Shown here piece by piece: positions 5,765-21,071 of a stretch of 22,062 nt of DNA (the stretch's first letter is position 1; every line of letters begins with the position of its first letter). The DNA is from a virus. The position numbers and the translations under genes are program-made. The notes under the pieces were generated by a model. The model saw only the letters and a program-made list of their open reading frames with translations, was not told the origin of the DNA and searched no databases. The stretch lies in the IMG/VR virus record IMGVR_UViG_3300006920_000292, positions 1-22,062 of that record; one strand, 5' to 3'.

Positions 5765-7186
5765 ATGGGATTATTTAACACTGGTGGATCGTTTCCTGCG
5801 GGATTAACACCATCACCAACTAAAACACTATTTGCAGGTAACTACCTGACATTTGACTCTGCCTCTGGAGGTGGAACTTTTGCACAACAATTCTTACCAG
5901 ACGTATATGAAAAAGAAGTTGAAAGATACGGAAATCGTTCTGTAGCTTCTTTCTTACGTATGGTTGGAGCTGAAATTCCTTCTGCTTCAGATCAAATTAT
6001 TTGGTCAGAGCAAGGAAGATTGCATATTGCTTATGATGATGCAACTCTTACTGCTGCAACAAGCGTTGTTGCTAAAGCTGGTCATGCTGTTCATTTAGGA
6101 CAGACTGTTGCTATTTCTCAAGGGCTTACAACTGTTAAAGCCGTAGTTACTGTTGTAGCTGCTGGACAATTTACTGTTGCACCCTACACCGCAGAACATC
6201 TTGATGATGCAGGCTTAGCTGACGGAACTGCTAAAGTATTTGTTTACGGTTCTGAATTTGCTAAAGGAACTGCTGGAATGCAAGGATCTGTAGATGCTGG
6301 TTTCCAACAATTCAGCAATTCACCAATTATTATTAAAGACAAGTATTCAATTTCAGGATCTGATGCTGCTCAAATTGGGTGGGTAGAAGTAACTACTGAA
6401 AATGGAGCGTCTGGATATTTATGGTATTTAAAATCTGAGCATGAAACACGCTTACGTTTTGAAGACTATTTAGAAATGTCTATGGTAGAAGGTGAAAAAG
6501 CTGCTGCAGGTTCTGGAGCTCTTGGAGCAAGTTACAAAGGTACTGAAGGTCTTTTCGCTGCAATTGAAGGAAGAGGTAATATTTATCAAAACTTTAATTC
6601 AGGTGAAGCTACTTTAGCAAACGCTGGATCAGATCGTACTGCTTTACAAGATTTTGATGAAATTCTTAAGAACCTTGACAAGCAAGGAGCTATTGAAGAA
6701 AACATGTTATTTTTAAACCGTGCAACTGCATTGGCTTTTGATGATATGCTAGGAGCTGTAAATGCTCACTATGCTGGAGGATCTTCTTTTGGAGTATTCA
6801 ACAACAGTGAGGATATGGCACTTAACCTAGGATTTAGTGGTTTCCGCAGAGGATCTTACGACTTCTACAAAACTGACTGGAAGTATTTAAATGATGCTGC
6901 TACACGTGGACTTACTGAAGATATTGATGGTGTACTTGTGCCTGCTGGTACTTCAACTGTATACGATCAGCAATTAGGTAAGAACATTAAGCGTCCTTTC
7001 TTACATGTACGTTACCGTGCTTCAGAAGCTGATGATAGAAAAATGAAATCTTGGATCACTGGATCTGTAGGTGGAGTTTATACTTCTGACGTTGATGAAA
7101 TGAACGTTAACTTCTTGTCAGAAAGATGTTTATGTGTTCAAGGAGCTAACAACTTTACTTTATTTAAGTCTGTTACTCAATCATAA
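5765..7186 (+). CDS. Major capsid protein (HK97-type fold expected)
   Basis: This is the main shell protein of the head. At 473 residues it fits the major capsid proteins of large podoviruses and crAss-like phages. After a Gly-rich N-terminus it has an N-arm/E-loop-like region (FLPDVYEKEVERYGNRSVAS), then residues ~85-145 rich in Val, Ala and Thr that look like a small inserted beta domain. The core then resumes with YLKSEHETRLRFEDYLEMSM, a spine-helix-like stretch that I associate with this capsid family. Codon use is strongly biased towards GCT, GGA and ACT, as expected for the most abundant product of the region. It follows the scaffold by 19 bases and is followed by a strong hairpin with a T-run, consistent with a separate high-level transcript end. 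The fold is inferred; identity as capsid protein is well supported by order and composition. Confidence 0.88.
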   Translation: MGLFNTGGSFPAGLTPSPTKTLFAGNYLTFDSASGGGTFAQQFLPDVYEKEVERYGNRSVASFLRMVGAEIPSASDQIIWSEQGRLHIAYDDATLTAATSVVAKAGHAVHLGQTVAISQGLTTVKAVVTVVAAGQFTVAPYTAEHLDDAGLADGTAKVFVYGSEFAKGTAGMQGSVDAGFQQFSNSPIIIKDKYSISGSDAAQIGWVEVTTENGASGYLWYLKSEHETRLRFEDYLEMSMVEGEKAAAGSGALGASYKGTEGLFAAIEGRGNIYQNFNSGEATLANAGSDRTALQDFDEILKNLDKQGAIEENMLFLNRATALAFDDMLGAVNAHYAGGSSFGVFNNSEDMALNLGFSGFRRGSYDFYKTDWKYLNDAATRGLTEDIDGVLVPAGTSTVYDQQLGKNIKRPFLHVRYRASEADDRKMKSWITGSVGGVYTSDVDEMNVNFLSERCLCVQGANNFTLFKSVTQS

Positions 7187-9756: not shown

Positions 9757-12700
9757 ATGCCAGAAATTAAAAATGTATTTACTTCGGGTCGAATGAATAA
9801 AGACCTAGATGATAGAGTTTTAGCAGAAGGCGAATACAGAGATGCTTTAAATGTTCAAATATCCACTTCGGATGGAAAAGATGTAGGTACTGTTCAAAAC
9901 ATATCTGGTAATGAACAAATATCTTTGCTTGTTGATACAACAGCAAAATGCATTGGTAGTGTTAAAGATACTGAAAACAATAAAATATATTGGTTTGTTG
10001 CATCTGACACTAAAAGTTTGATACTGGAATTTGATGAAGCAACTAAATCTGTTGCTCCTGTTTTAGTAGATATTTATAGCATACTCAAGTTTAGCGCTAA
10101 TTATTTAATAACTGGTGTTAATGTATTTGATGGCTTGTTATTTTTTACTGATAACCAAACAGAGCCAAAAAAAATAAACATACAAAAATTTAAAGAAGGT
10201 TCAAGTAATTTCACTAATCATACGCAGGTGTATGGGCGTAACTTTCAAGAATCTGATATTACCGTAATAAAACAAAAACCAAACAATGCCCCTAGTGTTG
10301 CATTATCAAATAAAGTAGGTAGTGATAATGTTGACTCTGCTACTAATTTTAATTTTTCTAAAAACAGCGGGGCTGACCCTGTTAGCGTAGGAGAATCATA
10401 TACTATTAATTTATTAAATTCAAATAGAGAGTGGGCAATAGGCGATATACTAGTTTTTGAGTACGAGCAAAACGCTGACCAATTCAGCACAAACTGGGAA
10501 CCTATAAAAATAAAAGGTATAATAACCTCATATTCAAAAGGAGCTTCTGTAACTATTGAAATTGTAACTGCTACCAATAATTTTACAAATGAGGTAGCCC
10601 AATATAGTGTAATAAAAGAGCAGCCAAATCCTTTGTTTGAATTAAAATTTCCAAGATTTGCATATCGCTGGAAATACGAAGATGGTGAATATTCCGTGTT
10701 TTCTCCGTTTTCCGAAGTTGCTTTTTTACCTGGTGAATCAAAATATAATGCTAAAGACGGATATAATGAAGGTATGATAAATACTGTCCGTAAAATATTA
10801 CTATATGGCTTTGACACTCCTCCGGATAACGTAGAAGAAGTAGAAATACTTTATAAAGAATCAAGCAACAACAATGTATACACAGTAGAAGGTTTACCAA
10901 AAGATTCATTGAGTTCTTATGATATAACATCGGAGATAATATATAAAATTGTTGAAAACAATCAATTATTAAGATCTTCGGATAATGTTCCTAAAAAAGC
11001 TCGTGCTCAAGAGTTTACTTCAAACAGATTAATGTTTGGTAATTATACTCAGGGTTACGACATTAAAACCGATCCTAATTTAAATGTTAGAATACTATCT
11101 AAAACAGGAGTAGGAGCTTCTGTAAAAACCGATAGAACATATCAAATTGGTACTGTTTTTGAAGATGCATATGGTAGACAGTCTCCCGTTATTGCAAATC
11201 AAACTGGAGTTTTAAAATTAGATAGAGCTGCATCGGACAAAAAAAATAGTATAACTGTTAGCGGAACAACAGAACCACCTATTTGGGCATCAAGATATAA
11301 ATACTATATTAAAGAATCTTCAGCACCATATTACAATGTATTAGTAGATAAATACTACTTAAATAAAGAAGAACCAAACTCAATATGGTTTTCCTTGCCT
11401 TCTTCAGAAAGAAATAAAGTTACTGAAGACACTTACTTAATATTAAAGAAAAAACACGGTGCTGATATTGCTGTAGATGATACTACAACTAAATATAAAA
11501 TATTAGATATTGATAATGAAGCTCCTAACTTTTTAACAGATAAGTTTCAAAGCAAGGGACAAATTAATATGACTAATGTCACTACAGGGTTAGTTTCAAA
11601 TTCCAGTTTATTAGAAGCTGAAATACAAGCTAATGATGTTTTAGAAGCAACTTTAGCTGCTGGCTCTAAATTAAAATTTGTAAATGCTAGCGGTGAAAGT
11701 GATATATATACTGTTTCAAATGTTGTATTTACTGATACTGACGATGATGAAATTTCTAACACTATACAACTAACTGTTAATGAAGTATTTAACGAAAATG
11801 ATGTAAATACATTTGGATCATTAACAGATTATAATATTGTATTTGGTGAAATTGAAACAAAAATATCTCCTGAATTTAAAAATAGATTTTTTATAAAGCT
11901 TCGCATTGATTCTTTATTAAAACAAAATATTGTTAATGCTGTTTCAATTAAAACAAACAATACTAATGAATATAGGATTATTGATCAAGAAACAATAAAA
12001 GGTGATACGTATCAAAATATAAATCCTGACTGTAATGCTGGTTTATTAGGTACTGGAAGTGTAGACGAAAATAGTGGATATTATTGGCCAGGTCCAGGCG
12101 ATCCTTCTGTTACCCCTATGTCTAATGGTAGCGATAAAATATATATTAGAAGAACAGGTCAAGCTTGGAAAGATAAAAATAGTAAGTTTGATGATTTTTC
12201 TGAATTTTTAGACTCAGTTGGTTCTAAAATAAGATTTGAATCTGACCCTAACTCTGAAACCTACGAAATAATTTCTTCATTAAGAACAGATGGTAATAAT
12301 GGTTTTGGACGTACAAATAAACCTAAAGAAAGAATATGTAATTATTGGGTCCAATGGGAAATTCAACTTGATAAAAACATAGACTTTACACCTAATACAA
12401 CGGCATTAGATAAAAGAATATATATTCTTGATAATATAATTAATGAAGAAGAAAATCAATTATCTGTTAATTCACCAATTATATTTGAAACAGAGCCAGA
12501 AGAAGTAGCTGATCTTGATCTTTATTATGAAACTGAACAATCGTTTGAAATAGCTGATTGGTATAATCAAAAAGAATTAAAATGGTTTAATTGTTTTGCT
12601 TTTGGTAATGGGGTAGAATCTGATCGTATTAGAGATGACTTTAACGGCACTTTAATGGGAAAACAAGTAAGAGTATCATCTGTAATTGCAGAGCAGTTTA

Positions 12701-13749
12701 AAGAGGAAGAAAAGAAAAATACTATAATATTTTCAGGTATATATAATAGTATAAATGGCGTTAATCAAACTAATCAATTTAATCAAGCAGAAGCAATAAC
12801 TAAAGATTTAAATCCTGAGTACGGATCAATACAAAAGTTACACGCTAGAGATGGGGAGCTTATTGCATTAACAGAAGATAAAGTATTAAGAATACAGTCA
12901 AATAAAGATTTATTGTATAATGCTGATGGTTCTAGCTCACTAATATCATCTAATAGAGTTTTAGGAAATTCTATACCAGCAGCGGGTAATTTTGGAATAT
13001 CTAAAAATCCTGAGTCCTTTGCTACATATGGTAATTCATTTTACTTTTCTGACAGTGCAAGAAATTCTTTTTTAAGATGGGGAGGAGACGGTTTAACAGT
13101 TATTTCAGCATATGGATTAACTGATTACTTTAAAGACTTATTATCTACAAACACAGGAGCTGTAATTGGTAATTTTGATGAAGATTTAAACACATATAAT
13201 GTTACTGTAGGTGATCAAACTGTAGGATTTTCAGAATCTCAACGTGGCTGGACATCAAGATATAGTTTTATACCGGAGCATGGAGTAAGTTTAAATGCTA
13301 ATTATTATACATTTAAAAATGGTAATATTTGGCTGCATAATGTAGAGGATAGAAATAAAAATAATTTTTATAATACACAATACAAATCTTCTATAAAATT
13401 TTTATTTAACCAAAGCCCATCAGCTGTTAAAAAATACAAAACATTATCGTACGAAGGCGATGAAGGATGGGTTGCATCAAGTATAAAAACTAATTTACAG
13501 GATGGTTCTATAGACAGTTTTACAGATAAAGAAGGGAAATTCTTTAATTATATAAAAGGAAATAAAACAATATTAGATATTCCATTGCAAACAAGCAATT
13601 GGGATAGTAAACAATTTTCAAGTCAAGGTATTGGTAATGTAGCAACATTAGGTGGGGATTTAGAAATCACTGTTGCTGTTATGGATGCTTATATAGTGAA
13701 AACTATAGTAGAATGGGTTGGAGATACATATGAGTGCGTACAAACATAA
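9757..13749 (+). CDS. Giant tail hub / nozzle-like structural protein
   Basis: The product has 1330 residues and is almost entirely beta-type (Thr, Asn, Ser, Val, short Gly turns), without signal peptide or membrane segment. The N-terminus (FTSGRMNKDLDDRVLAEGEY, then RDALNVQIS) is a signature I associate with the tail stabilisation/nozzle protein of short-tailed phages, where a beta-propeller platform forms the distal tube (T7 gp12- or P22 gp10-like role). Repeated blade-like patterns (NKIYWFVAS, GLLFFTDNQTEPKKI, EDKVLRIQSNKDLLY, GNSFYFSDSARNSFLRWGGD) fit a propeller. It lies between adaptor and fibre genes, so it probably anchors the fibres. The last residues (EWVGDTYECVQT) resemble an internal stretch of the second fibre protein (KWLGDTFECC), hinting at a modular C-terminus. 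The nozzle role is inferred from pattern and position. Confidence 0.68.
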   Translation: MPEIKNVFTSGRMNKDLDDRVLAEGEYRDALNVQISTSDGKDVGTVQNISGNEQISLLVDTTAKCIGSVKDTENNKIYWFVASDTKSLILEFDEATKSVAPVLVDIYSILKFSANYLITGVNVFDGLLFFTDNQTEPKKINIQKFKEGSSNFTNHTQVYGRNFQESDITVIKQKPNNAPSVALSNKVGSDNVDSATNFNFSKNSGADPVSVGESYTINLLNSNREWAIGDILVFEYEQNADQFSTNWEPIKIKGIITSYSKGASVTIEIVTATNNFTNEVAQYSVIKEQPNPLFELKFPRFAYRWKYEDGEYSVFSPFSEVAFLPGESKYNAKDGYNEGMINTVRKILLYGFDTPPDNVEEVEILYKESSNNNVYTVEGLPKDSLSSYDITSEIIYKIVENNQLLRSSDNVPKKARAQEFTSNRLMFGNYTQGYDIKTDPNLNVRILSKTGVGASVKTDRTYQIGTVFEDAYGRQSPVIANQTGVLKLDRAASDKKNSITVSGTTEPPIWASRYKYYIKESSAPYYNVLVDKYYLNKEEPNSIWFSLPSSERNKVTEDTYLILKKKHGADIAVDDTTTKYKILDIDNEAPNFLTDKFQSKGQINMTNVTTGLVSNSSLLEAEIQANDVLEATLAAGSKLKFVNASGESDIYTVSNVVFTDTDDDEISNTIQLTVNEVFNENDVNTFGSLTDYNIVFGEIETKISPEFKNRFFIKLRIDSLLKQNIVNAVSIKTNNTNEYRIIDQETIKGDTYQNINPDCNAGLLGTGSVDENSGYYWPGPGDPSVTPMSNGSDKIYIRRTGQAWKDKNSKFDDFSEFLDSVGSKIRFESDPNSETYEIISSLRTDGNNGFGRTNKPKERICNYWVQWEIQLDKNIDFTPNTTALDKRIYILDNIINEEENQLSVNSPIIFETEPEEVADLDLYYETEQSFEIADWYNQKELKWFNCFAFGNGVESDRIRDDFNGTLMGKQVRVSSVIAEQFKEEEKKNTIIFSGIYNSINGVNQTNQFNQAEAITKDLNPEYGSIQKLHARDGELIALTEDKVLRIQSNKDLLYNADGSSSLISSNRVLGNSIPAAGNFGISKNPESFATYGNSFYFSDSARNSFLRWGGDGLTVISAYGLTDYFKDLLSTNTGAVIGNFDEDLNTYNVTVGDQTVGFSESQRGWTSRYSFIPEHGVSLNANYYTFKNGNIWLHNVEDRNKNNFYNTQYKSSIKFLFNQSPSAVKKYKTLSYEGDEGWVASSIKTNLQDGSIDSFTDKEGKFFNYIKGNKTILDIPLQTSNWDSKQFSSQGIGNVATLGGDLEITVAVMDAYIVKTIVEWVGDTYECVQT

Positions 13750-13758
13750 TTAACAAAA

Positions 13759-14961
13759 ATGGCAAATTCAGGTTACAAAAATTATCTTACATTAAAAAAA
13801 TATGTAAATGGTGTTGCAACAACAGAAACTAAAGCGAACACAATAGGTGCTGCAGATTACATAGCTCCTGTCTTAGACATAGTTAGTTGCCCACAAGCTT
13901 CTAACACGTGTCCAGAGGTTGCTTCTGCGTTATCGGATATTTCTGTTACTGTTGGTGCTTCAAATCAAACCATATCATTAACTTCTGTATTTAGTGATGC
14001 TGATTCAGACCCTTTAACTTATACAGCAACATCTACAAACTCAGGAGCGATTGGTGTTAGTATATCTGGAAGTAACTTAATTATTTCCTATTTAAGTGGG
14101 ACTGCAGCTTCATCTTCTATTTCTGTAACAGCCTCAGACGGAACGTGTTCAGCAACAGATACATTTAATGTAACTTTAAATGAAGAGGCGGCAACCCCCC
14201 CAACTTGGAATTGTGTGAATAATTCTTGTGTACAAGTAAATGATGGAACTGGAACTTACAATACATTATCAGCCTGTCAAGCAGCTTGTGCTACAACTAC
14301 AGCAGCTCCGTGTCCTCCATTAATAACAATACAGTCCGCAAGTTTTAATATTGTACAATCTTCTCAATCTTACACTACAATGGGAGGATACTGCGCTAAA
14401 GACAATGTGTCCGCTACAGGATCAAAATGGTATATAGACACAAGCTCTTCTACCCCTGATATTTATTCTTATGAATTTACTATTTCAGGACCATATATTC
14501 AGTGCCCTACTGGTACTAGTTCTCCTTTAGGTACAAATGTACAAAGTTGGGATTACGGTACAGGTACAATAACCCCTCAAGCTTTGGGACGATTATGGGA
14601 TACAGGAATAGAATGGACCAACGCTGGTCATACTTATGATGTTATTTTAGAAACATCTAGTTTTGATGTAGAAATGACAAGAGTACACTTAGCACCTAGA
14701 TGCGGTGCAACAACTACATCTACTACAACAACAACACTAGCGCCGGCTTATACAGCTTTAGTTAGATGTGATAATAATACGGATACTTGGTATACTACTC
14801 AACAAATAAGTTCCGGGGGGACATTTTATAGTGCAACTGGGGTTTGTTATATTAGTGAAGGAACTACATATGATATTACTGGAAAATCATATTTAGATGG
14901 TAATGCTTATCCACCAATCGGTGGTCCTTGTGATTGTGATTGTTATAACCTAAACTGCTAA
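13759..14961 (+). CDS. Modular fibre-like protein 1: Ig/cadherin-like domain, Cys module, Thr-rich linker
   Basis: The 400-residue protein starts 9 bases after the nozzle-like gene. Residues ~1-45 form an N-terminal attachment region. Residues ~55-140 are an Ig/cadherin-like domain with SVFSDADSDPLTYTATSTNS and a closing ASDGTCSATDTFNVTL. A short Cys module follows (Cys152, Cys157, Cys173, Cys177; WNC...GTYNTLSACQAAC), then a short TTTAAPCPP joint. Residues ~190-314 form a beta domain of unknown type. A second Thr-rich linker (residues 318-330) leads to a C-terminal ~70-residue domain ending in the Cys-rich CDCDCYNLNC. This design suits a surface-exposed tail or head fibre carrying receptor-binding tips. 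No signal peptide is present, consistent with intracellular assembly. A head-decoration fibre is the alternative. Confidence 0.66.
   Translation: MANSGYKNYLTLKKYVNGVATTETKANTIGAADYIAPVLDIVSCPQASNTCPEVASALSDISVTVGASNQTISLTSVFSDADSDPLTYTATSTNSGAIGVSISGSNLIISYLSGTAASSSISVTASDGTCSATDTFNVTLNEEAATPPTWNCVNNSCVQVNDGTGTYNTLSACQAACATTTAAPCPPLITIQSASFNIVQSSQSYTTMGGYCAKDNVSATGSKWYIDTSSSTPDIYSYEFTISGPYIQCPTGTSSPLGTNVQSWDYGTGTITPQALGRLWDTGIEWTNAGHTYDVILETSSFDVEMTRVHLAPRCGATTTSTTTTTLAPAYTALVRCDNNTDTWYTTQQISSGGTFYSATGVCYISEGTTYDITGKSYLDGNAYPPIGGPCDCDCYNLNC
14712..14748 (+). repeat. 37-bp direct repeat, copy 1 (Thr-rich linker of fibre 1)
   Basis: This copy matches 15282-15318 at 36 of 37 positions; the one difference is C at 14741 against T at 15311. 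It encodes the linker Thr-Thr-Ser-Thr(5)-Leu-Ala-Pro-Ala; in the other copy the first Ala is Val. The two copies are 570 bp apart, in different genes, in the same orientation and the same reading frame. Such near-identity, including synonymous positions, suggests recent duplication or ongoing recombination. Confidence 0.85.
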
Positions 14962-14970
14962 TAAAATAAT

Positions 14971-16545
14971 ATGTCTTTAGTAAATTTTAATTCATCGGTT
15001 TGCAACTATACAACAGAGGTTGTTTCAATCTCTGCAAGCCCCGGTTCTCCATCAACTAATTCATATCAGTATATTGATTTAGAAATGGTGCCAGATTCTG
15101 GGTATTATTTAGATGCTGCTAATTTTACATATGTATCAAATGAGTATATTGATTACGTTGTTTTTATGGCGGATGGTAATAATTTAAAAGCTAGAGCGTA
15201 TTTAAAAACTTTTACTTGGCCTACTGAAAGAACAAATCTGGAAGTTCCTGTTTCTGGTTGTGCAACAAAAATATTGCCAATAACTACATCTACTACAACA
15301 ACAACACTAGTGCCGGCTACAACCACTACAGCTCACCCTTGCCCATATGTTTCGGGATATTTTATTAATAAAAGCATAATAGAACTAAGAGGGGAAAAAA
15401 GAACGTTTAAAGTTTATGGTTTGCAAGGTGCTACATTTTCTTATAGCGTAGTAGATAGCAGTAATAGTGCTACATTAATTTCTGGAACAAAAACAATTGG
15501 TTTTGCAGGTTCAGTTGACATTGTTTTTGATATTACGCTATCTACTATAGTAAGGGTGTTTGATGTTACATTAACCACAACAGAAGCATGCACCCTACAG
15601 TTACAAACACAACCATCTACATTTAAACTTTACCAAGGTGTTGATGAAAAATGGTTAGGAGATACTTTCGAATGCTGTCCAGAAGCAGGAACATTACTTA
15701 GTACTAATTGCGTTGGGGAAGATCAATACGGTACATACACTGACGGGCAATGCGGAACTGTAAATAGTTTAATAGAAAATTCGACTGAGTGCTGTCCAGC
15801 AGCGGGAACATTATTAAGCACTAATTGCGTTGGTGTAGATCAATATGGAACATATACTGATGGACAATGCGGAACTACAAACAGTTTAATAGAATCAAAT
15901 TCGGCTGCTTGTGGGTATGTACCTCCTACAACAACAACAACAACTGCAGGGCCAACAACTACCACAACCGCTGCCCCTTGCACTAGTTGCGCTGGAGGAA
16001 TAAATCCAATATCTGACTTCTCAGCCGCTGTTGGTGGAACATCAGGAACTATATCAATTACAGGAACAAACATATCTCCATATGCGGTAAGTTCATTGAA
16101 TCCTAGCTTAGTTACTGCTAGCTTGAGCGGAAGTACATTGACTTGGACAACAAATAGTAGCAACAATTGTGGTGTAGCTCATATAAGAGTGCTTGCTAGC
16201 AATACTTCCGGAGGGAATTGTTGTGTTGAAATAGAGAACTTTTATATTACGGTAACCGGCTGTACAGGACCAACAACTACATCAACAACCACAACTACGA
16301 CAACTACGACGACAACTACAACAACTACTACGGCAGCTCCGACAACAACTGCAGCACCAGTTTACTATAAATTTATATCTTGTACTGGCGGACCAACTGT
16401 ATACCAAACGTTCGGTTCTGCTCCAACAGTAAATGGTAGATATACAAATGGAGTTGAATATTATACTCACGACGGTTATTCAACAACTTTACCTGGGCCT
16501 GTAGTAAATAATTTATCTGGACCAATTGGAATAGGATGTCCATAA
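14971..16545 (+). CDS. Modular fibre-like protein 2: Cys-rich repeats, Ig-like domain, three Thr-rich linkers
   Basis: The 524-residue protein is a string of modules. An N-terminal beta domain (~1-100) is followed by a Thr-rich linker (~105-120) and a beta domain (~123-225). Two tandem 39-residue Cys-rich repeats come next (234-272 and 273-311). The following linker has Thr runs at 320-325 and 329-333. An Ig-like domain (~340-430) precedes a long poly-Thr linker (435-460) and a C-terminal ~60-residue tip (464-524). The linkers resemble mucin-like, possibly O-glycosylated stalks. The first linker shares a 37-bp near-identical DNA repeat with fibre gene 1. It follows fibre 1 by 9 bases and precedes a glycosyltransferase-like gene by 15. 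A receptor-binding or adhesion fibre is most likely; the host receptor cannot be read from the sequence. Confidence 0.66.
   Translation: MSLVNFNSSVCNYTTEVVSISASPGSPSTNSYQYIDLEMVPDSGYYLDAANFTYVSNEYIDYVVFMADGNNLKARAYLKTFTWPTERTNLEVPVSGCATKILPITTSTTTTTLVPATTTTAHPCPYVSGYFINKSIIELRGEKRTFKVYGLQGATFSYSVVDSSNSATLISGTKTIGFAGSVDIVFDITLSTIVRVFDVTLTTTEACTLQLQTQPSTFKLYQGVDEKWLGDTFECCPEAGTLLSTNCVGEDQYGTYTDGQCGTVNSLIENSTECCPAAGTLLSTNCVGVDQYGTYTDGQCGTTNSLIESNSAACGYVPPTTTTTTAGPTTTTTAAPCTSCAGGINPISDFSAAVGGTSGTISITGTNISPYAVSSLNPSLVTASLSGSTLTWTTNSSNNCGVAHIRVLASNTSGGNCCVEIENFYITVTGCTGPTTTSTTTTTTTTTTTTTTTTAAPTTTAAPVYYKFISCTGGPTVYQTFGSAPTVNGRYTNGVEYYTHDGYSTTLPGPVVNNLSGPIGIGCP
15282..15318 (+). repeat. 37-bp direct repeat, copy 2 (first Thr-rich linker of fibre 2)
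   Basis: This is the second copy of the repeat at 14712-14748, with a single mismatch. Sequence similarity stops sharply on the 3' side, where each linker joins a different domain; on the 5' side the preceding codons also differ. It therefore looks like a joint between swappable modules. Confidence 0.85.
15670..15903 (+). repeat. Two tandem 117-bp (39-residue) Cys-rich coding repeats
   Basis: Unit 1 covers 15670-15786 and unit 2 covers 15787-15903. Both encode the pattern ECCP[EA]AGTLLSTNCVG.DQ, then YGTYTDGQCGT..SLIE, with four Cys each. The protein is nearly identical between units, but many third positions differ (for example ACATTACTTAGTACT against ACATTATTAAGCACT). The duplication is therefore not recent and the protein sequence has been conserved. 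I associate similar repeats with structural proteins of marine phages, from memory only. Confidence 0.85.
15928..15969 (+). repeat. Thr-rich linker codons (residues 320-333 of fibre 2)
   Basis: Six Thr codons, then Ala-Gly-Pro, then five Thr codons, leading into Ala-Ala-Pro-Cys. Codons are mainly ACA in the first run and mixed in the second. It separates the Cys-rich repeats from the Ig-like domain. Confidence 0.75.
16273..16359 (+). repeat. Long poly-threonine linker codons (residues 435-463 of fibre 2)
   Basis: The tract reads Thr(3)-Ser-Thr(16)-Ala-Ala-Pro-Thr(3)-Ala-Ala-Pro. The 16-Thr run mixes ACA, ACC, ACG and ACT, with partial 9-bp units of the form ACAACTACG. It joins the Ig-like domain to the C-terminal tip and is likely an extended stalk. 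Its antisense strand opens a spurious Cys-rich frame. Confidence 0.8.
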
Positions 16546-16560
16546 TTAAAATTAAATTAA

Positions 16561-17469
16561 ATGATATATATATGCGCACAACCAGCCACTCAGTACTATG
16601 CTTGGCAGATAGACACAATGCTATACAGCTTCAGAACTGTAGGTATTAATTTACAGGATGTACACATAGTTTGTGCGATACATGGTGAAATAGACCCATA
16701 CTTTGACTCACTAATGCGTAAGTATACAGGGGTTGTGTTTTCTTTCTACGAAGATACTAGGCATGACAAGTCCTACATATCATCAATAAGACCTCACATC
16801 CTTAAAAAACATTTTACAGCATATCCAGACCTAAAAGACGAGCCTATATTCTATCACGACTGCGATATTGTATTTACAAAACCACTTAATATAGATCATT
16901 TTTTAGAAAACGACATATCTTACCTCTCAGACACGATCTCTTACATAGGGTACAACTATATCCACTCAAAGGGAGAAGATGTTTTAAAACGAATGCTAGA
17001 TGTCGTAGGAATAGACGAGGATGTTGTTAAAAGAAACGAAAGCAATTCTGGTGGTGCTCAGTACCTTTTGAAGGGTATAGATAAATACTTCTGGTATGAT
17101 ATAGAGAACGACTCTAATAGACTTTTTAAAGACCTCACAACTCTTAATGAAGAAAAGAAAAAACAAGATCCTAATTATCATGAGCTACAAATATGGTGTG
17201 CTGATATGTGGGCAGTTTTATGGAACTTATGGAAAAGAAGCAAAGAGACTCAAGTCATTGATGAGATGAACTTTTCATGGTCTGTAAACGATCAGATAGA
17301 GTGGCATAAAAGCTCTATTTATCACAACGCAGGAGTAACCAACGACAGAAAGGATTTATTTTTTAAAGGTAACTATATAGATACCCTTCCTGACCTTGGC
17401 TTAGATTTAAACAAAAACACTTGTTCTTACAAGTATTACAATATAATTAAAAGTGCTTTGACACAATGA
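16561..17469 (+). CDS. GT-A-type glycosyltransferase-like protein
   Basis: The 302-residue soluble protein has the hallmarks of a nucleotide-sugar-dependent GT-A enzyme. A beta strand near the N-terminus (MIYICAQP) is followed by a Rossmann-like half. A DxD-type motif, Asp100-Cys101-Asp102, sits in FYHDCDIVFTKPL after a hydrophobic strand and would bind the metal and sugar nucleotide. A late His255-Asn256-Ala-Gly motif could contact the acceptor or metal. SNSGGAQYLLKG in the middle resembles the acceptor-side loop of GT8-like enzymes. It starts 15 bases after the fibre gene, and its TGA overlaps the ATG of the radical SAM gene (ATGA), so the two are probably translated together. Codon use differs from the flanks: by hand count 14 of 30 Asp codons are GAC and about half the Tyr codons TAC. 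The sugar and acceptor are unknown; fibre proteins are the nearest candidates. Host surface modification is the alternative. Confidence 0.72.
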   Translation: MIYICAQPATQYYAWQIDTMLYSFRTVGINLQDVHIVCAIHGEIDPYFDSLMRKYTGVVFSFYEDTRHDKSYISSIRPHILKKHFTAYPDLKDEPIFYHDCDIVFTKPLNIDHFLENDISYLSDTISYIGYNYIHSKGEDVLKRMLDVVGIDEDVVKRNESNSGGAQYLLKGIDKYFWYDIENDSNRLFKDLTTLNEEKKKQDPNYHELQIWCADMWAVLWNLWKRSKETQVIDEMNFSWSVNDQIEWHKSSIYHNAGVTNDRKDLFFKGNYIDTLPDLGLDLNKNTCSYKYYNIIKSALTQ

Positions 17470-18512
17470 ACATAGAGGAAATAATAAGACAAGCCTTTAA
17501 TAATAACAAGATATCTCAAATGCAGTTAGATCCAAATGGTCACTGTAATGCAGCTTGTTGGTTTTGTCCTGTATCTGTTAAAGGCAATCCAAAGCACGCC
17601 AAGAAACCTATGCCCGTATCTTTGCTAAGAAAAATCATAGAGAATATGATAGAAGAGAGAGATAGGGAGGATGGGCTAGTATCTAAGAACTTTGGAGGTT
17701 TCTATACATCTCATTATAACGAAACCCTTTTGTATCCATATATAGAAGATTTTTTTAAGATCCTTAGAGAGTATAGACTTATGACTATGATTCTCTCAAA
17801 CGGATCCACACTTACTCCTAATAAAACTAAACTTATAAAGGAATATCAAGATGTCATAAACGGTGTAAACCTAAACGTACCAGCATTAAGTAATGATGAG
17901 CTTTGGGCAAAAAGATCTGGAATGAAAGTAGGAATGTATCCTAATCTAATTAGGAATATAAATTACTTTACTTCAGAACTACCCCATTGGTCAGAAAATG
18001 GTGTGTTTAGTATTGGTATGAACGGTATAAACAACAACTCTTTGTTTGGTCAAGGAGGTTGGATAGAGACTGGAGACAACTTTCCTAAAGACATTGATAT
18101 GGACACAAACACTGGAGAGAATGCTAGAGAAGTTGTTATGGCAAAACAAATGTTTCCTAAGATAAAAAACATATACGGAATGCCTCATTTAATAGATAGG
18201 GCTGGACTTATGGAAGGGATTATAGACAACAAAAAAGCAATCAACGCGCACTTAAAAAACAACAATCCATCTGCAAAAGTTGTAGGATGTGGAAACGGAA
18301 TAGAGGTTGGAGGAAGACCTATAGGATGGATACACATAAATTCCATAGGTCAAGCATTTCTTTGCTGTAATGATTACGATATGGAGATCGTAGTTGGGGA
18401 CATGTCAAAACAAACATTGAGAGATTTTTGGGGTAAAGAGGAGCACGTTCAAAAAGTAAAAGAATCTTACGAGGGAATATGCACGGTGTGTGCTTCCGCT
18501 AGATTTCAATAG
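17466..18512 (+). CDS. Radical SAM enzyme with SPASM-type C-terminal domain
   Basis: The 348-residue protein carries a canonical CxxxCxxC cluster (Cys27, Cys31, Cys34 in GHCNAACWFCP) that binds the [4Fe-4S] used to cleave S-adenosylmethionine. A glycine-containing strand (TMILSNGSTLT) fits the TIM-barrel core. The C-terminus fits a SPASM domain: Cys275, Cys300-Cys301 (INSIGQAFLCCND), a GDMSKQTLRDFWGKEE helix, and Cys339-x-x-Cys342. SPASM enzymes commonly modify peptides or proteins (thioether, C-C or epimerisation chemistry), though some act on small molecules or sugars. It overlaps the glycosyltransferase-like gene by 4 bp, so the two likely act in one pathway. The substrate is not visible. 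No precursor peptide is evident nearby; the Cys- and Thr-rich fibres upstream are conceivable substrates (speculation). Confidence 0.85.
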   Translation: MNIEEIIRQAFNNNKISQMQLDPNGHCNAACWFCPVSVKGNPKHAKKPMPVSLLRKIIENMIEERDREDGLVSKNFGGFYTSHYNETLLYPYIEDFFKILREYRLMTMILSNGSTLTPNKTKLIKEYQDVINGVNLNVPALSNDELWAKRSGMKVGMYPNLIRNINYFTSELPHWSENGVFSIGMNGINNNSLFGQGGWIETGDNFPKDIDMDTNTGENAREVVMAKQMFPKIKNIYGMPHLIDRAGLMEGIIDNKKAINAHLKNNNPSAKVVGCGNGIEVGGRPIGWIHINSIGQAFLCCNDYDMEIVVGDMSKQTLRDFWGKEEHVQKVKESYEGICTVCASARFQ

Positions 18513-18609: not shown

Positions 18610-18936
18610 ATGGATTCAATAACACTAACCTTTCCGAAGGAATTAAACGTATCGTTACAAAAAGATACAGAAGATATTGTTTATTTTTTAGATACAGATG
18701 GTACTAAAAGACGTATAGGTCCATGCATTAATATAACCGGAAATGTAGTTACTTGTAATATAGAACCTTGGAGAAAGCGTCCTGTAGCAGGTAGTTATAT
18801 ATTCTTTGGTAAAGAAAACATTATAAACTCTTCAGGTTTAGTAGGACACTATGCTGAAGTAGAAATGGAAAACACAAGTACAGTAAAAAAAGAACTCTTT
18901 GCTGTAAATTCAGAAATATTTTTAAGTAGTAATTAA
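18610..18936 (+). CDS. Small conserved virion-associated protein, function unknown
   Basis: The 108-residue protein is beta-rich, soluble and without signal or membrane segments. It opens with MDSITLTFPKELNVSLQKDT, has a central Cys pair (PCINITGNVVTCNIEP), and closes with a segment I recall from many uncultured marine phages (GHYAEVEMENTSTVKKELFA, then VNSEIFLSSN). In those phages it lies, as here, near tail and internal virion genes. I know of no assigned function. It is followed 11 bases later by the internal-virion-like gene. Codon use returns to the AT-ending style of the structural genes, so it belongs to the phage core rather than to the upstream cassette. Confidence 0.6.
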   Translation: MDSITLTFPKELNVSLQKDTEDIVYFLDTDGTKRRIGPCINITGNVVTCNIEPWRKRPVAGSYIFFGKENIINSSGLVGHYAEVEMENTSTVKKELFAVNSEIFLSSN

Positions 18937-18947
18937 AATAAAAAATT

Positions 18948-19670
18948 ATGATTGATCCAATGACAATAGTTAAAGCAGGAGCGGGAACTATCAAAGGAGT
19001 TGCCGATATAGCCTCTAGCTTTATAGGTGGTCGTGCTAGAAGACAAGAAGAAAGAGAAGCAAGATCAGAATTTGAAAGAAGAAAAAGTGAATATGGAAGT
19101 TTTCAATTTACTAATCCATATGCTAATATGCAAAACACCTTTGAAGACGTGACTGTTAATCAACAACAAGCCCAGTTTGCGGCTCAACAACAACAACAAG
19201 CATTAGCTTCTACAATGTCTGGTATGCAACAAGCCGCGGGCTCTTCTGGAATTGCCGCGTTAGCTCAAACAATGGCTCAACAGCAATCTGCTAATTTACA
19301 GCAAGCATCTGCTTCTATAGGTGCCCAAGAACAGCAAATACAAATGGCACAGGCTGGTCAAGCCGGTCAAATACAACAAATGGAAGCCCAGGGTGCTAAA
19401 ATGGCAGAAACGCAAAATTTTGGTAGGCTATCAACCCAATTAGAAGCTTCTGCAATTAGAAAAAGACAATCGGAAGCGGCTAGAGCAGCTGCAACACAGC
19501 AACTCATTGGCGGAATAACACAAGTAGCTACTGGTGGATTAGCTGGAGGCGGAAAGTCTAGTAATAAAGGCGGAGGAGATGCTCAATTAGGGAACACTAG
19601 CTCTACTGATTATTCAAATTTCGGAAAAGACTTAGCAAATATAGCTGCTTCTACTAATATTAAATTATAA
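18948..19670 (+). CDS. Gln/Ala-rich internal virion (ejection)-like protein
   Basis: The 240-residue protein has an amphipathic, weakly hydrophobic N-terminal helix (MIDPMTIVKAGAGTIKGVAD, IASSFIGG), then a basic/acidic helix (RARRQEEREARSEFERRKSE). The motif NPYANMQNTFEDVTVNQQQA follows. Residues ~75-170 are a long Gln/Ala/Met-rich helical stretch (QQQQQALASTMSGMQQAAGS). The C-terminus is Gly-rich (GGLAGGGKSSNKGGG). This resembles internal virion proteins that are stored in the head and ejected to form a channel through the cell envelope (T7 gp14-like role). It precedes two further large helical proteins, as in an ejection cluster. Function is inferred from composition and order; a virion chaperone is possible. 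Confidence 0.6.
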   Translation: MIDPMTIVKAGAGTIKGVADIASSFIGGRARRQEEREARSEFERRKSEYGSFQFTNPYANMQNTFEDVTVNQQQAQFAAQQQQQALASTMSGMQQAAGSSGIAALAQTMAQQQSANLQQASASIGAQEQQIQMAQAGQAGQIQQMEAQGAKMAETQNFGRLSTQLEASAIRKRQSEAARAAATQQLIGGITQVATGGLAGGGKSSNKGGGDAQLGNTSSTDYSNFGKDLANIAASTNIKL

Positions 19671-19676
19671 TAACGG

Positions 19677-21071
19677 ATGGTAAATACTTATAACCCAAGA
19701 CTAGCTCAGGCTTTAGGCAAAGCAGAAGGCAATTTATTTGTTGATTACGCTGCTCCTATTAAAGATGTTCTAAATAAAAATGAACAAGAAAGACTTAAAG
19801 AAGAAGAAAGCAATTATAAGAAAGCTATAATTGAAGCTAACGCTTACCAAAAAGCAAAAAAAGAAAGTGAAGCGGTAACAGCTAGGCTTGCTAGGGAAAT
19901 GAAAGATTATGACCCCGCAAAAGTACATCCTAAATACTTAAAAGAAGCTACTTATTCAGTTAATAATTTAAGAAATATAGCAAGGGGGATAATAAATAAT
20001 CCGGAATTATCTGAAGCGGAAAGATCTATTCAATTAGAAGAAAAATTTAATCAGCCTCTAAAAAAAATATATCAAAAGAGTGAACAATTAAAGCAATCTG
20101 ATGAAGATTTTTTAGATTCTAATGATTTATTAAGCAAAGCTAATAATGCATTTATCATAGATTTTAATAATATAAAGCATGATCCAGAAGGATATGATAT
20201 TATAAATGACTTTGCTGTAATTAAATTAGATAAATTTGATAATAAAAATCAAAACGATTCTGATTTTAAAGAATTAGTTGCTAAGTATAAAGTTGGAAAT
20301 AACGTTGCAATTCCATTAGATGATTTTAATGAAATGCATAAACCCATATTGCAAAGCTGGAAAAAATATAAGGAGGTGTTTGACGATATAGATGCTGCTG
20401 CTAAAAGCATGGCTTCAAAAGGTTTAACTAAACCTCAATTTGCAGCTGAAATAGAAAAAACAACTTCAGCTTTACGTTTTACTCCGGAAGAAGTTAAATC
20501 TATTGCTTATGATCATCTTGGAAAAAACGAAGAAGCGTTTGCTGGGTATGATTTAAATAAAGACAATAAATTTGATGAAAATGAATTAAATAATTGGGTT
20601 AAAGATCAATTAAAAACAGGAGCAAAAACTACTTATGATAATTGGTTTAAAGCAGATTTGCCTGAAGACGGCGGAAAACCTACAGTAGCGGAAGAAAAGA
20701 AAAAACAAATTCAACAAAATATAACTTTTGCAACTAATGAATTAAATAAAATGAATCTACCTAAAACTTCAAAAGGAATGATAGATGTGGGTAGTACTTC
20801 ATTTAATAGATTATTAAATAATCTTAATTTGTCTGTAGATGTGGCGGGTTCATTTGATGCAAATGGTAAACAGCTTATTAAAGTAAAAAGCAATCTTACA
20901 AATAAAACATTAAATTTTACTAGTGACATGACTGAGGCTGAATTTAATAGGGCTGTTTTGTTATTATCAGGAGCGTTGCCAGAAGAAGCTATGAAAAAAT
21001 ATCCAGATAATCAAGGACCGTCTGAACAAAACGAAGTAATTAATATTGGTAGTTTACCTGTTAAAAAATAA
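19677..21071 (+). CDS. Helical virion protein with an EF-hand-like loop
   Basis: The 464-residue protein is mostly helical and highly charged (residues ~30-75 and 140-165 rich in Lys/Glu), without signal peptide or membrane span. Residues 292-303 form a textbook EF-hand loop, DLNKDNKFDENE: acidic or Asn ligands at positions 1, 3, 5 and 9, Phe at 8, Glu at 12. The loop is flanked by helices (PEEVKSIAYDHLGKNEEAFA before and LNNWVKDQLK after). Only one such loop is obvious. The gene sits between the internal-virion-like gene (6 bases upstream) and a large downstream gene (5 bases), so an internal or ejected virion protein is the best guess. Calcium binding is predicted by motif. The remainder matches nothing I recognise. 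Confidence 0.6.
   Translation: MVNTYNPRLAQALGKAEGNLFVDYAAPIKDVLNKNEQERLKEEESNYKKAIIEANAYQKAKKESEAVTARLAREMKDYDPAKVHPKYLKEATYSVNNLRNIARGIINNPELSEAERSIQLEEKFNQPLKKIYQKSEQLKQSDEDFLDSNDLLSKANNAFIIDFNNIKHDPEGYDIINDFAVIKLDKFDNKNQNDSDFKELVAKYKVGNNVAIPLDDFNEMHKPILQSWKKYKEVFDDIDAAAKSMASKGLTKPQFAAEIEKTTSALRFTPEEVKSIAYDHLGKNEEAFAGYDLNKDNKFDENELNNWVKDQLKTGAKTTYDNWFKADLPEDGGKPTVAEEKKKQIQQNITFATNELNKMNLPKTSKGMIDVGSTSFNRLLNNLNLSVDVAGSFDANGKQLIKVKSNLTNKTLNFTSDMTEAEFNRAVLLLSGALPEEAMKKYPDNQGPSEQNEVINIGSLPVKK

Follow-up and report, generated by a model that had tools for sequence, protein, structure and literature searches.

Why should a phage keep a glycosyltransferase gene and a radical SAM gene, joined by a stop/start overlap, next to its fibre genes, and on what do the two enzymes act? 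We analysed the locus in the window, a 22 kb viral fragment (22,062 nucleotides, the whole stretch of DNA under study) with a crAss-like structural module. A preliminary description of the sequence had proposed that the pair forms a modification pathway for virion proteins or a route to an unusual sugar. The features on which the argument rests are as follows.

9757..13749, + strand: crAss-like muzzle protein, 1330 aa (Pfam crAss_MUZ 1.1e-12, crAss_MUZ_C 1.3e-10, PHROG 14478 3e-144)
13759..14961, + strand: fibre-like protein A, 400 aa, 16% Thr, Big_9-like Ig domain (Big_9 5e-4, below cut-off), candidate acceptor
14710..14736, + strand: Thr tract of fibre A, TTTSTTTTT at aa 318
14971..16545, + strand: fibre-like protein B, 524 aa, 19% Thr, five T/S runs, directly 5' of GT
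16273..16332, + strand: longest Thr tract of fibre B, 20 residues, TTTSTTTTTTTTTTTTTTTT, beside four shorter runs
16561..17469, + strand: predicted glycosyltransferase (GT), 302 aa, PHROG 4417 (2.1e-69), GT-A fold (model pLDDT 96.7)
16858..16866, + strand: DxD motif D100-C101-D102, in YHDCDIVF, both Asp invariant in 43 relatives
17466..17469, unstranded: ATGA stop/start overlap of GT and rSAM (GT TGA 17467-17469, rSAM ATG from 17466)
17466..18512, + strand: predicted radical SAM enzyme (rSAM), 348 aa, one-cluster (twitch) C-terminal domain (Pfam Radical_SAM and SPASM; BtrN best match)
17544..17567, + strand: CxxxCxxC for the SAM-binding [4Fe-4S] cluster, C27/C31/C34, invariant in 22 relatives
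18288..18491, + strand: Cys of a single auxiliary cluster, C275, C300/C301, C339 and C342, invariant; C300, C339 and C342 align with Cys of BtrN

The protein encoded at 9757-13749 scores 47.4 bits against crAss_MUZ in Pfam (cut-off 27), and the capsid protein (5765-7186) shares 45-52% identity with capsids of Flavobacterium, Cellulophaga and Maribacter phages, the nearest isolates by capsid being Flavobacterium elemo, Cellulophaga and Maribacter phages. Judged by its muzzle protein and capsid kin, the window phage is crAss-like (Crassvirales). The genes run in the order muzzle, fibre A, fibre B, GT, rSAM, and the ATGA overlap proposed earlier is exact to the nucleotide (16561-17469 / 17466-18512). 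The pair had also been placed between fibre genes and ejection-type genes. Thr-tract fibre-like genes do lie upstream, but the genes downstream of rSAM (18948-21071) gave no family match, which leaves the ejection-type label without confirmation. As a separate observation, a 108-aa gene product (18610-18936) corresponds to the C-terminal half of phrog_18548/38031, whose N-terminal half is matched by the C-terminus of the muzzle protein (gene 9757-13749). What is a single protein in relatives is thus in two parts here, with fibre A, fibre B, GT and rSAM in between. Further downstream, a 464-aa protein (19677-21071) contains an EF-hand-like stretch, DLNKDNKFDENEL, that matches Bacteroid_pep in Pfam below threshold (4e-5).

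GT matches the PHROG 4417 profile full length (E 2.1e-69, residues 1-299 of 302). This family is annotated as of unknown function, is named 'prophage pi2 protein 34' in several isolates and occurs in 74 records of isolate phages, most of them phages of Bacillota. Neither the window GT nor its 43 relatives matched a Pfam glycosyltransferase family by sequence, GT8 and GT24 included; the fold alone agrees. Structure prediction gave a model of very high confidence (pLDDT 96.7) with a GT-A fold across the whole chain, and comparison of residues 1-302 with the PDB, where Foldseek was run too, returned glycogenin (Z 15.4), Skp1 galactosyltransferase (14.9), LgtC (14.8) and UGGT (14.0). The GT-A motif read earlier from the letters is borne out by the model and by the invariance of D100 and D102 among the 43 relatives, and the structure comparison suggested at that time indeed gave GT8-like fold neighbours for GT (LgtC, glycogenin) and BtrN as the nearest enzyme for rSAM. 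Hydropathy revealed no membrane helix in GT, indicating a soluble protein. On the strength of the model, we are confident that GT is a GT-A glycosyltransferase resembling glycogenin, LgtC and UGGT and equipped with a DxD motif.

Evidence on the acceptor came from the genes around GT. For neighbour counts, GTs from viral contigs were clustered at 80% identity and a Thr-tract gene was defined by three or more TTT. The gene directly upstream of GT carried Thr tracts in 31 of 45 clusters, compared with 15 of the 379 other genes at these loci (Fisher 4.5e-25), and the gene directly downstream in 0 of 40. A Ser/Thr run of at least five residues lay within six genes of GT in 76 of 90 loci, directly upstream in 63 of these; no Thr/Ser run was found nearby in the remaining 14.

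Isolate phages gave the same picture. Among 17 examined isolates with GT, 15 had poly-Thr tails (runs of at least five T/S) and two had Thr-rich tails, on the capsid, tail-tube, fibre or a neighbouring small protein; SAC12B and LP65 carry TTVAPTT and TTTETQT repeats in place of strict T/S runs. Where the homologous tail or capsid protein came from a phage lacking GT, such a run was missing in 13 of 13 cases, so that strict runs occur in 15/17 GT-positive vs 0/13 GT-negative phages. The capsid of Lactobacillus phage iLp84 (GT present) ends in VLVPTTTTTTTSK, whereas CL1, CL2 and R24.2 (GT absent in the stretches read) have capsids that are 98% identical to it but end in VLIPKP, and the tail proteins of these phages differ likewise. 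Within Coetzeevirus, R3.3, which has GT, bears the tail, and Bassarid, phiJL-1 and ATCC8014 are without it. The tail protein of E. faecalis phage phiFL1A ends in ...TTTTTSTTTTTTSSTTTTTTTQASSK, its stop overlapped by the GT start codon, and the tails of Lactococcus 1706 and bIL285 read ...VTTTTTTTTTTHHD and ...TTTTTTTTTRHD. A role fixed to fibres was ruled out, since GT tracks capsid and tail-tube tails in phages of Bacillota. In SA2, RQ1, Planchet, 9183 and VFW, the tail or capsid gene is followed immediately after its stop by poly-Thr encoded in a different frame; these sites lie at 3117-3927 of L175, at 2229-2931 of L182 and just past the capsid gene in L176, L178 and L184. These are possibly programmed frameshift extensions that bear the tag.

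Because GT and the tract co-vary in isolate phages, the acceptor can be named as the poly-Thr tract. We consider it highly probable that PHROG 4417 GTs glycosylate poly-Thr virion segments, and we infer from the genomic co-variation that they do so by O-glycosylation. The acceptors in the window would be the Thr tracts of fibre B and fibre A, with fibre B the most likely one by the directly-upstream position rule. Their genomes read in the same way, related phages likely apply this tag-and-enzyme scheme to their own capsid and tail proteins.

The second gene product scores above both Pfam cut-offs for Radical_SAM (2.9e-9; 37.8 bits, cut-off 29.5) and SPASM (7.9e-6). Its Cys residues comprise the three of CxxxCxxC and exactly five more (275, 300, 301, 339 and 342), and all eight are invariant in 22 relatives. 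The CxxxCxxC and SPASM-like Cys described earlier need one correction. The SAM-binding C27/C31/C34 stand, but a full SPASM domain, with two auxiliary clusters and 7-8 Cys, was rejected despite the Pfam score, as just five Cys follow residue 34. Four or five C-terminal Cys fit one auxiliary cluster, and by its sequence rSAM is a radical SAM enzyme of the one-cluster twitch (BtrN) type. BtrN, the 2-deoxy-scyllo-inosamine dehydrogenase of the butirosin pathway, was the best PDB match by sequence (4e-8; profile 3e-9) and by structure (Z 18.1 over 225 residues at 3.1 A; next rows Z 16.1). YydG/EpeE ranked next by sequence, and Foldseek with the rSAM model put DesII and BtrN on top, with DesII leading. 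The peptide enzymes ChlB, CteB, anSME and SuiB gave Z 15-16, about 2 Z units under BtrN, and with so small a difference the fold alone does not decide the substrate. Viperin was considered and set aside as the identity of rSAM: one generic profile match fell far below the cut-off, and its Z of 13.7 was lower.

No rSAM relative was found in published isolate phages. Limited searches for a bacterial source, with two peptide patterns against GTDB contigs and with a profile against 395 Bacteroidota genomes (without a positive control), returned no relative and nothing at E <= 1e-20, respectively. Pfam and NCBIfam scans, which cover short peptides partially, revealed neither a RiPP-type precursor gene nor an RRE beside rSAM. 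In L012 (8908-9943), rSAM is split into two overlapping frames beside an intact GT, through pseudogenization or sequencing error.

The GT and rSAM pair recurs in many unrelated viral contigs and also as a fused protein, and is therefore more than a chance arrangement. Clustering of rSAMs from viral contigs at 90% identity left 46 distinct proteins. A PHROG 4417 GT is encoded no more than two genes away from ten of these and is fused to seven. Another 22 are next to a different glycosyltransferase, either GT60-like (PF11397) or from a GT2-like family with a seed that narrowly misses the Pfam cut-off, and for the last seven no glycosyltransferase was recognised. Thus, 39/46 adjoin or are fused to a glycosyltransferase of one of three different families. 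In rSAM-recruited loci holding both genes, the two lay within two genes of each other in 26/26 cases (random placement within these loci predicts 10.3), and their distance matrices correlate (Mantel r 0.75, 0/5000 permutations). The fused proteins, from seven rSAM clusters with linkers of 13-20 aa (e.g. TANKSILIEQTPE), form one clade in the GT tree (100/100) and hence have one origin. Functional coupling of GT and rSAM is supported by adjacency, correlated divergence and fusion.

The association with rSAM switches at least six times on well-supported branches of the GT tree, which marks rSAM as a module that is gained or lost. It is near GT in just 14/48 GT clusters; a strict two-gene system was ruled out, as most PHROG 4417 loci have no rSAM, and the slot adjoining GT is taken in other loci by GT2, GT29-like, GT32-like or GT71-like genes. 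In short, rSAM is optional for GT, yet rarely without a glycosyltransferase. The pathway for virion proteins envisaged in the preliminary description is upheld for GT by the poly-Thr co-variation in isolates, but the pair is not obligate. Homologues that occur separately had been named there as counter-evidence, and some do; the main idea survives this. In addition, rSAM also accompanies GT60 and GT2 genes, sometimes in a replication module.

Some loci add an NAD-dependent epimerase, a GDP-mannose dehydratase or GT71 beside rSAM. In one clade (L100, L107, L121, L122 and L130), rSAM and a GT2-like gene are part of a replication module that also comprises DnaB, primase, dNMP kinase and DNA polymerase, plus a second glycosyltransferase; in L129 and L134, a member of this GT2-like family is next to rSAM too, there with Thr-tract fibres alongside. 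As both partners and settings of rSAM switch, these gene neighbourhoods leave the sugar as the common element. The likeness to BtrN and DesII also leans towards a sugar as substrate, and on balance we think it probable that rSAM tailors one. The GT2/rSAM adjacency in replication modules may reflect a different pathway.

Several further arrangements were seen around rSAM. L107 (2922-16005) and L122, with a GT2-like gene, dNMP kinase and second glycosyltransferase beside rSAM, are candidate loci for DNA glycan hypermodification. Three of the seven rSAM clusters without a recognised glycosyltransferase neighbour adjoin ribonucleotide reductase, and relatives in L123-L128, L131-L133 and L135 lie directly 3' of that gene with no adjoining glycosyltransferase; L125 and L131 are two rSAM copies on one contig of more than 200 kb. 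A distant rSAM clade (L137-L167) has a conserved order of Thr-tract gene, 126-162 aa gene, ~76 aa gene, rSAM, GT60-like gene and, often, epimerase. In L104, L160 and L167, 2OG-Fe(II) oxygenases adjoin rSAM, recalling the Skp1 hydroxyproline route.

The alternative that fares best, which we still hold to be unlikely, keeps GT as the enzyme that glycosylates poly-Thr and lets rSAM modify the protein itself, by epimerising Thr C-alpha or forming a C-C or thioether cross-link in the manner of EpeE or SPASM RiPP maturases, which would prime the glycosylated linker or lock it. The acceptor is a repetitive peptide, YydG/EpeE is second to BtrN by sequence, and the fold is common to ChlB, CteB, SuiB and anSME at Z 15-16. 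Against this, the Cys of rSAM allow one auxiliary cluster only, while most such peptide enzymes bind two; BtrN is best by both sequence and structure; and in replication modules rSAM takes a GT2 partner with no Thr-tract protein nearby. The evidence on rSAM points to tailoring of a sugar and away from peptide chemistry, the activity most familiar for SPASM enzymes.

Less probable again is that the pair makes an unusual nucleotide sugar for use elsewhere, on the host surface or phage DNA, and lies next to fibre genes for late expression only. DesII, one of the top structural matches, acts on TDP-sugars, and part of the rSAM family has NAD epimerase, GDP-mannose dehydratase or dNMP-kinase neighbours. 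However, poly-Thr tails on virion proteins go with GT in phages that are unrelated, and even nearly identical capsids differ in the tail according to whether GT is present; moreover, GT, which has no membrane helix, is accompanied by no membrane or lipid-carrier partner gene. Gtr-like modification of the host surface was itself disfavoured by the position in a structural operon and by the missing helix. That the Thr tracts are microsatellite-like expansions in fibre genes, with GT in the same operon and not acting on them, is very improbable: they are low-complexity ACN repeats and 14/90 GT loci lack them, but the co-variation in isolates extends to capsid and tail-tube tails, beyond fibres alone, with strict runs in 15/17 vs 0/13.

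We therefore prefer a reading in which fibre poly-Thr linkers are O-glycosylated and the sugar receives radical tailoring, and rate this reading as a whole as rather probable. The cassette would decorate the phage's own fibres. In the first step, strongly inferred, a retaining-type GT-A enzyme would use a nucleotide-linked sugar to glycosylate Thr/Ser hydroxyls along the poly-Thr linkers in the product of the fibre gene directly upstream, the tract serving as tag; a model acceptor peptide for the window GT would be TTTTTTTT. In the second step, for which the case is moderate, the co-translated BtrN-like twitch rSAM would abstract hydrogen from the sugar, whether already in the glycan or still bound to the nucleotide, and its oxidation or epimerisation would leave an unusual sugar on the virion. 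Further glycosyltransferases in the slot after GT in related phages would make this a modular decoration locus. It seems evenly balanced whether this is a widespread system, in which poly-Thr is a transferable tag read by PHROG 4417 and rSAM, sometimes fused to GT, makes a keto- or epimerised virion sugar, which would be the first case of a virion glycan tailored by a radical SAM enzyme.

Under this proposal, both the acceptor (poly-Thr) and the enzyme family (PHROG 4417) of virion glycosylation could be named for phages of Bacillota and Bacteroidota, and an uncharacterised rSAM family, which we found in viral contigs only, would be tied to glycan tailoring. Laboratory phages are included in the GT-positive set, which makes it directly testable. 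Poly-Thr tails could then predict virion glycosylation in any phage genome, with a bearing on phage adsorption and stability and on capsid and tail annotation.

How does this compare with known systems? The literature searched, largely outside subscription journals, held no description of a phage poly-Thr tag, of PHROG 4417 as its enzyme or of an rSAM add-on on virions. The earlier remark that no phage system with this pair had been described holds to that extent; virion glycosylation by a phage glycosyltransferase is itself already known, and what we did not find described is the poly-Thr tag and the rSAM add-on. BtrN shares with the window rSAM a radical SAM core and a one-cluster twitch domain, but is ~20% identical and ~100 aa shorter, and its substrate is a free aminocyclitol in antibiotic synthesis. 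The glycogenin or GT8-GT24 group (LgtC, UGGT, Skp1 galactosyltransferase) shares the whole-chain GT-A fold and DxD with GT, and the acceptors of glycogenin and UGGT are a protein or glycoprotein; identity to the window GT is 6-12%, with no Pfam GT8/GT24 sequence match. The Skp1-type hydroxyproline/Thr alpha-GlcNAc transferase (PF11397, CAZy GT60), a polypeptide glycosyltransferase, fills the rSAM partner slot in the distant rSAM clade with Thr-tract genes nearby, but it is absent from the window and not sequence-homologous to GT. In mycobacteriophages Che8, Corndog and Myrna, capsid and tail-tube proteins are glycosylated at their C-termini by a glycosyltransferase that the phage itself encodes (Freeman et al. 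2023, Cell Host Microbe, via PMC12363180, PMC12619734). As far as these accounts go, the scheme of a glycosyltransferase acting on virion protein C-termini resembles the present one. Unlike the mycobacteriophage system as described there, the one proposed here would combine a poly-Thr-like tag, a PHROG 4417 GT and fibre targets in crAss-like phages with an rSAM that is coupled or fused to the GT.
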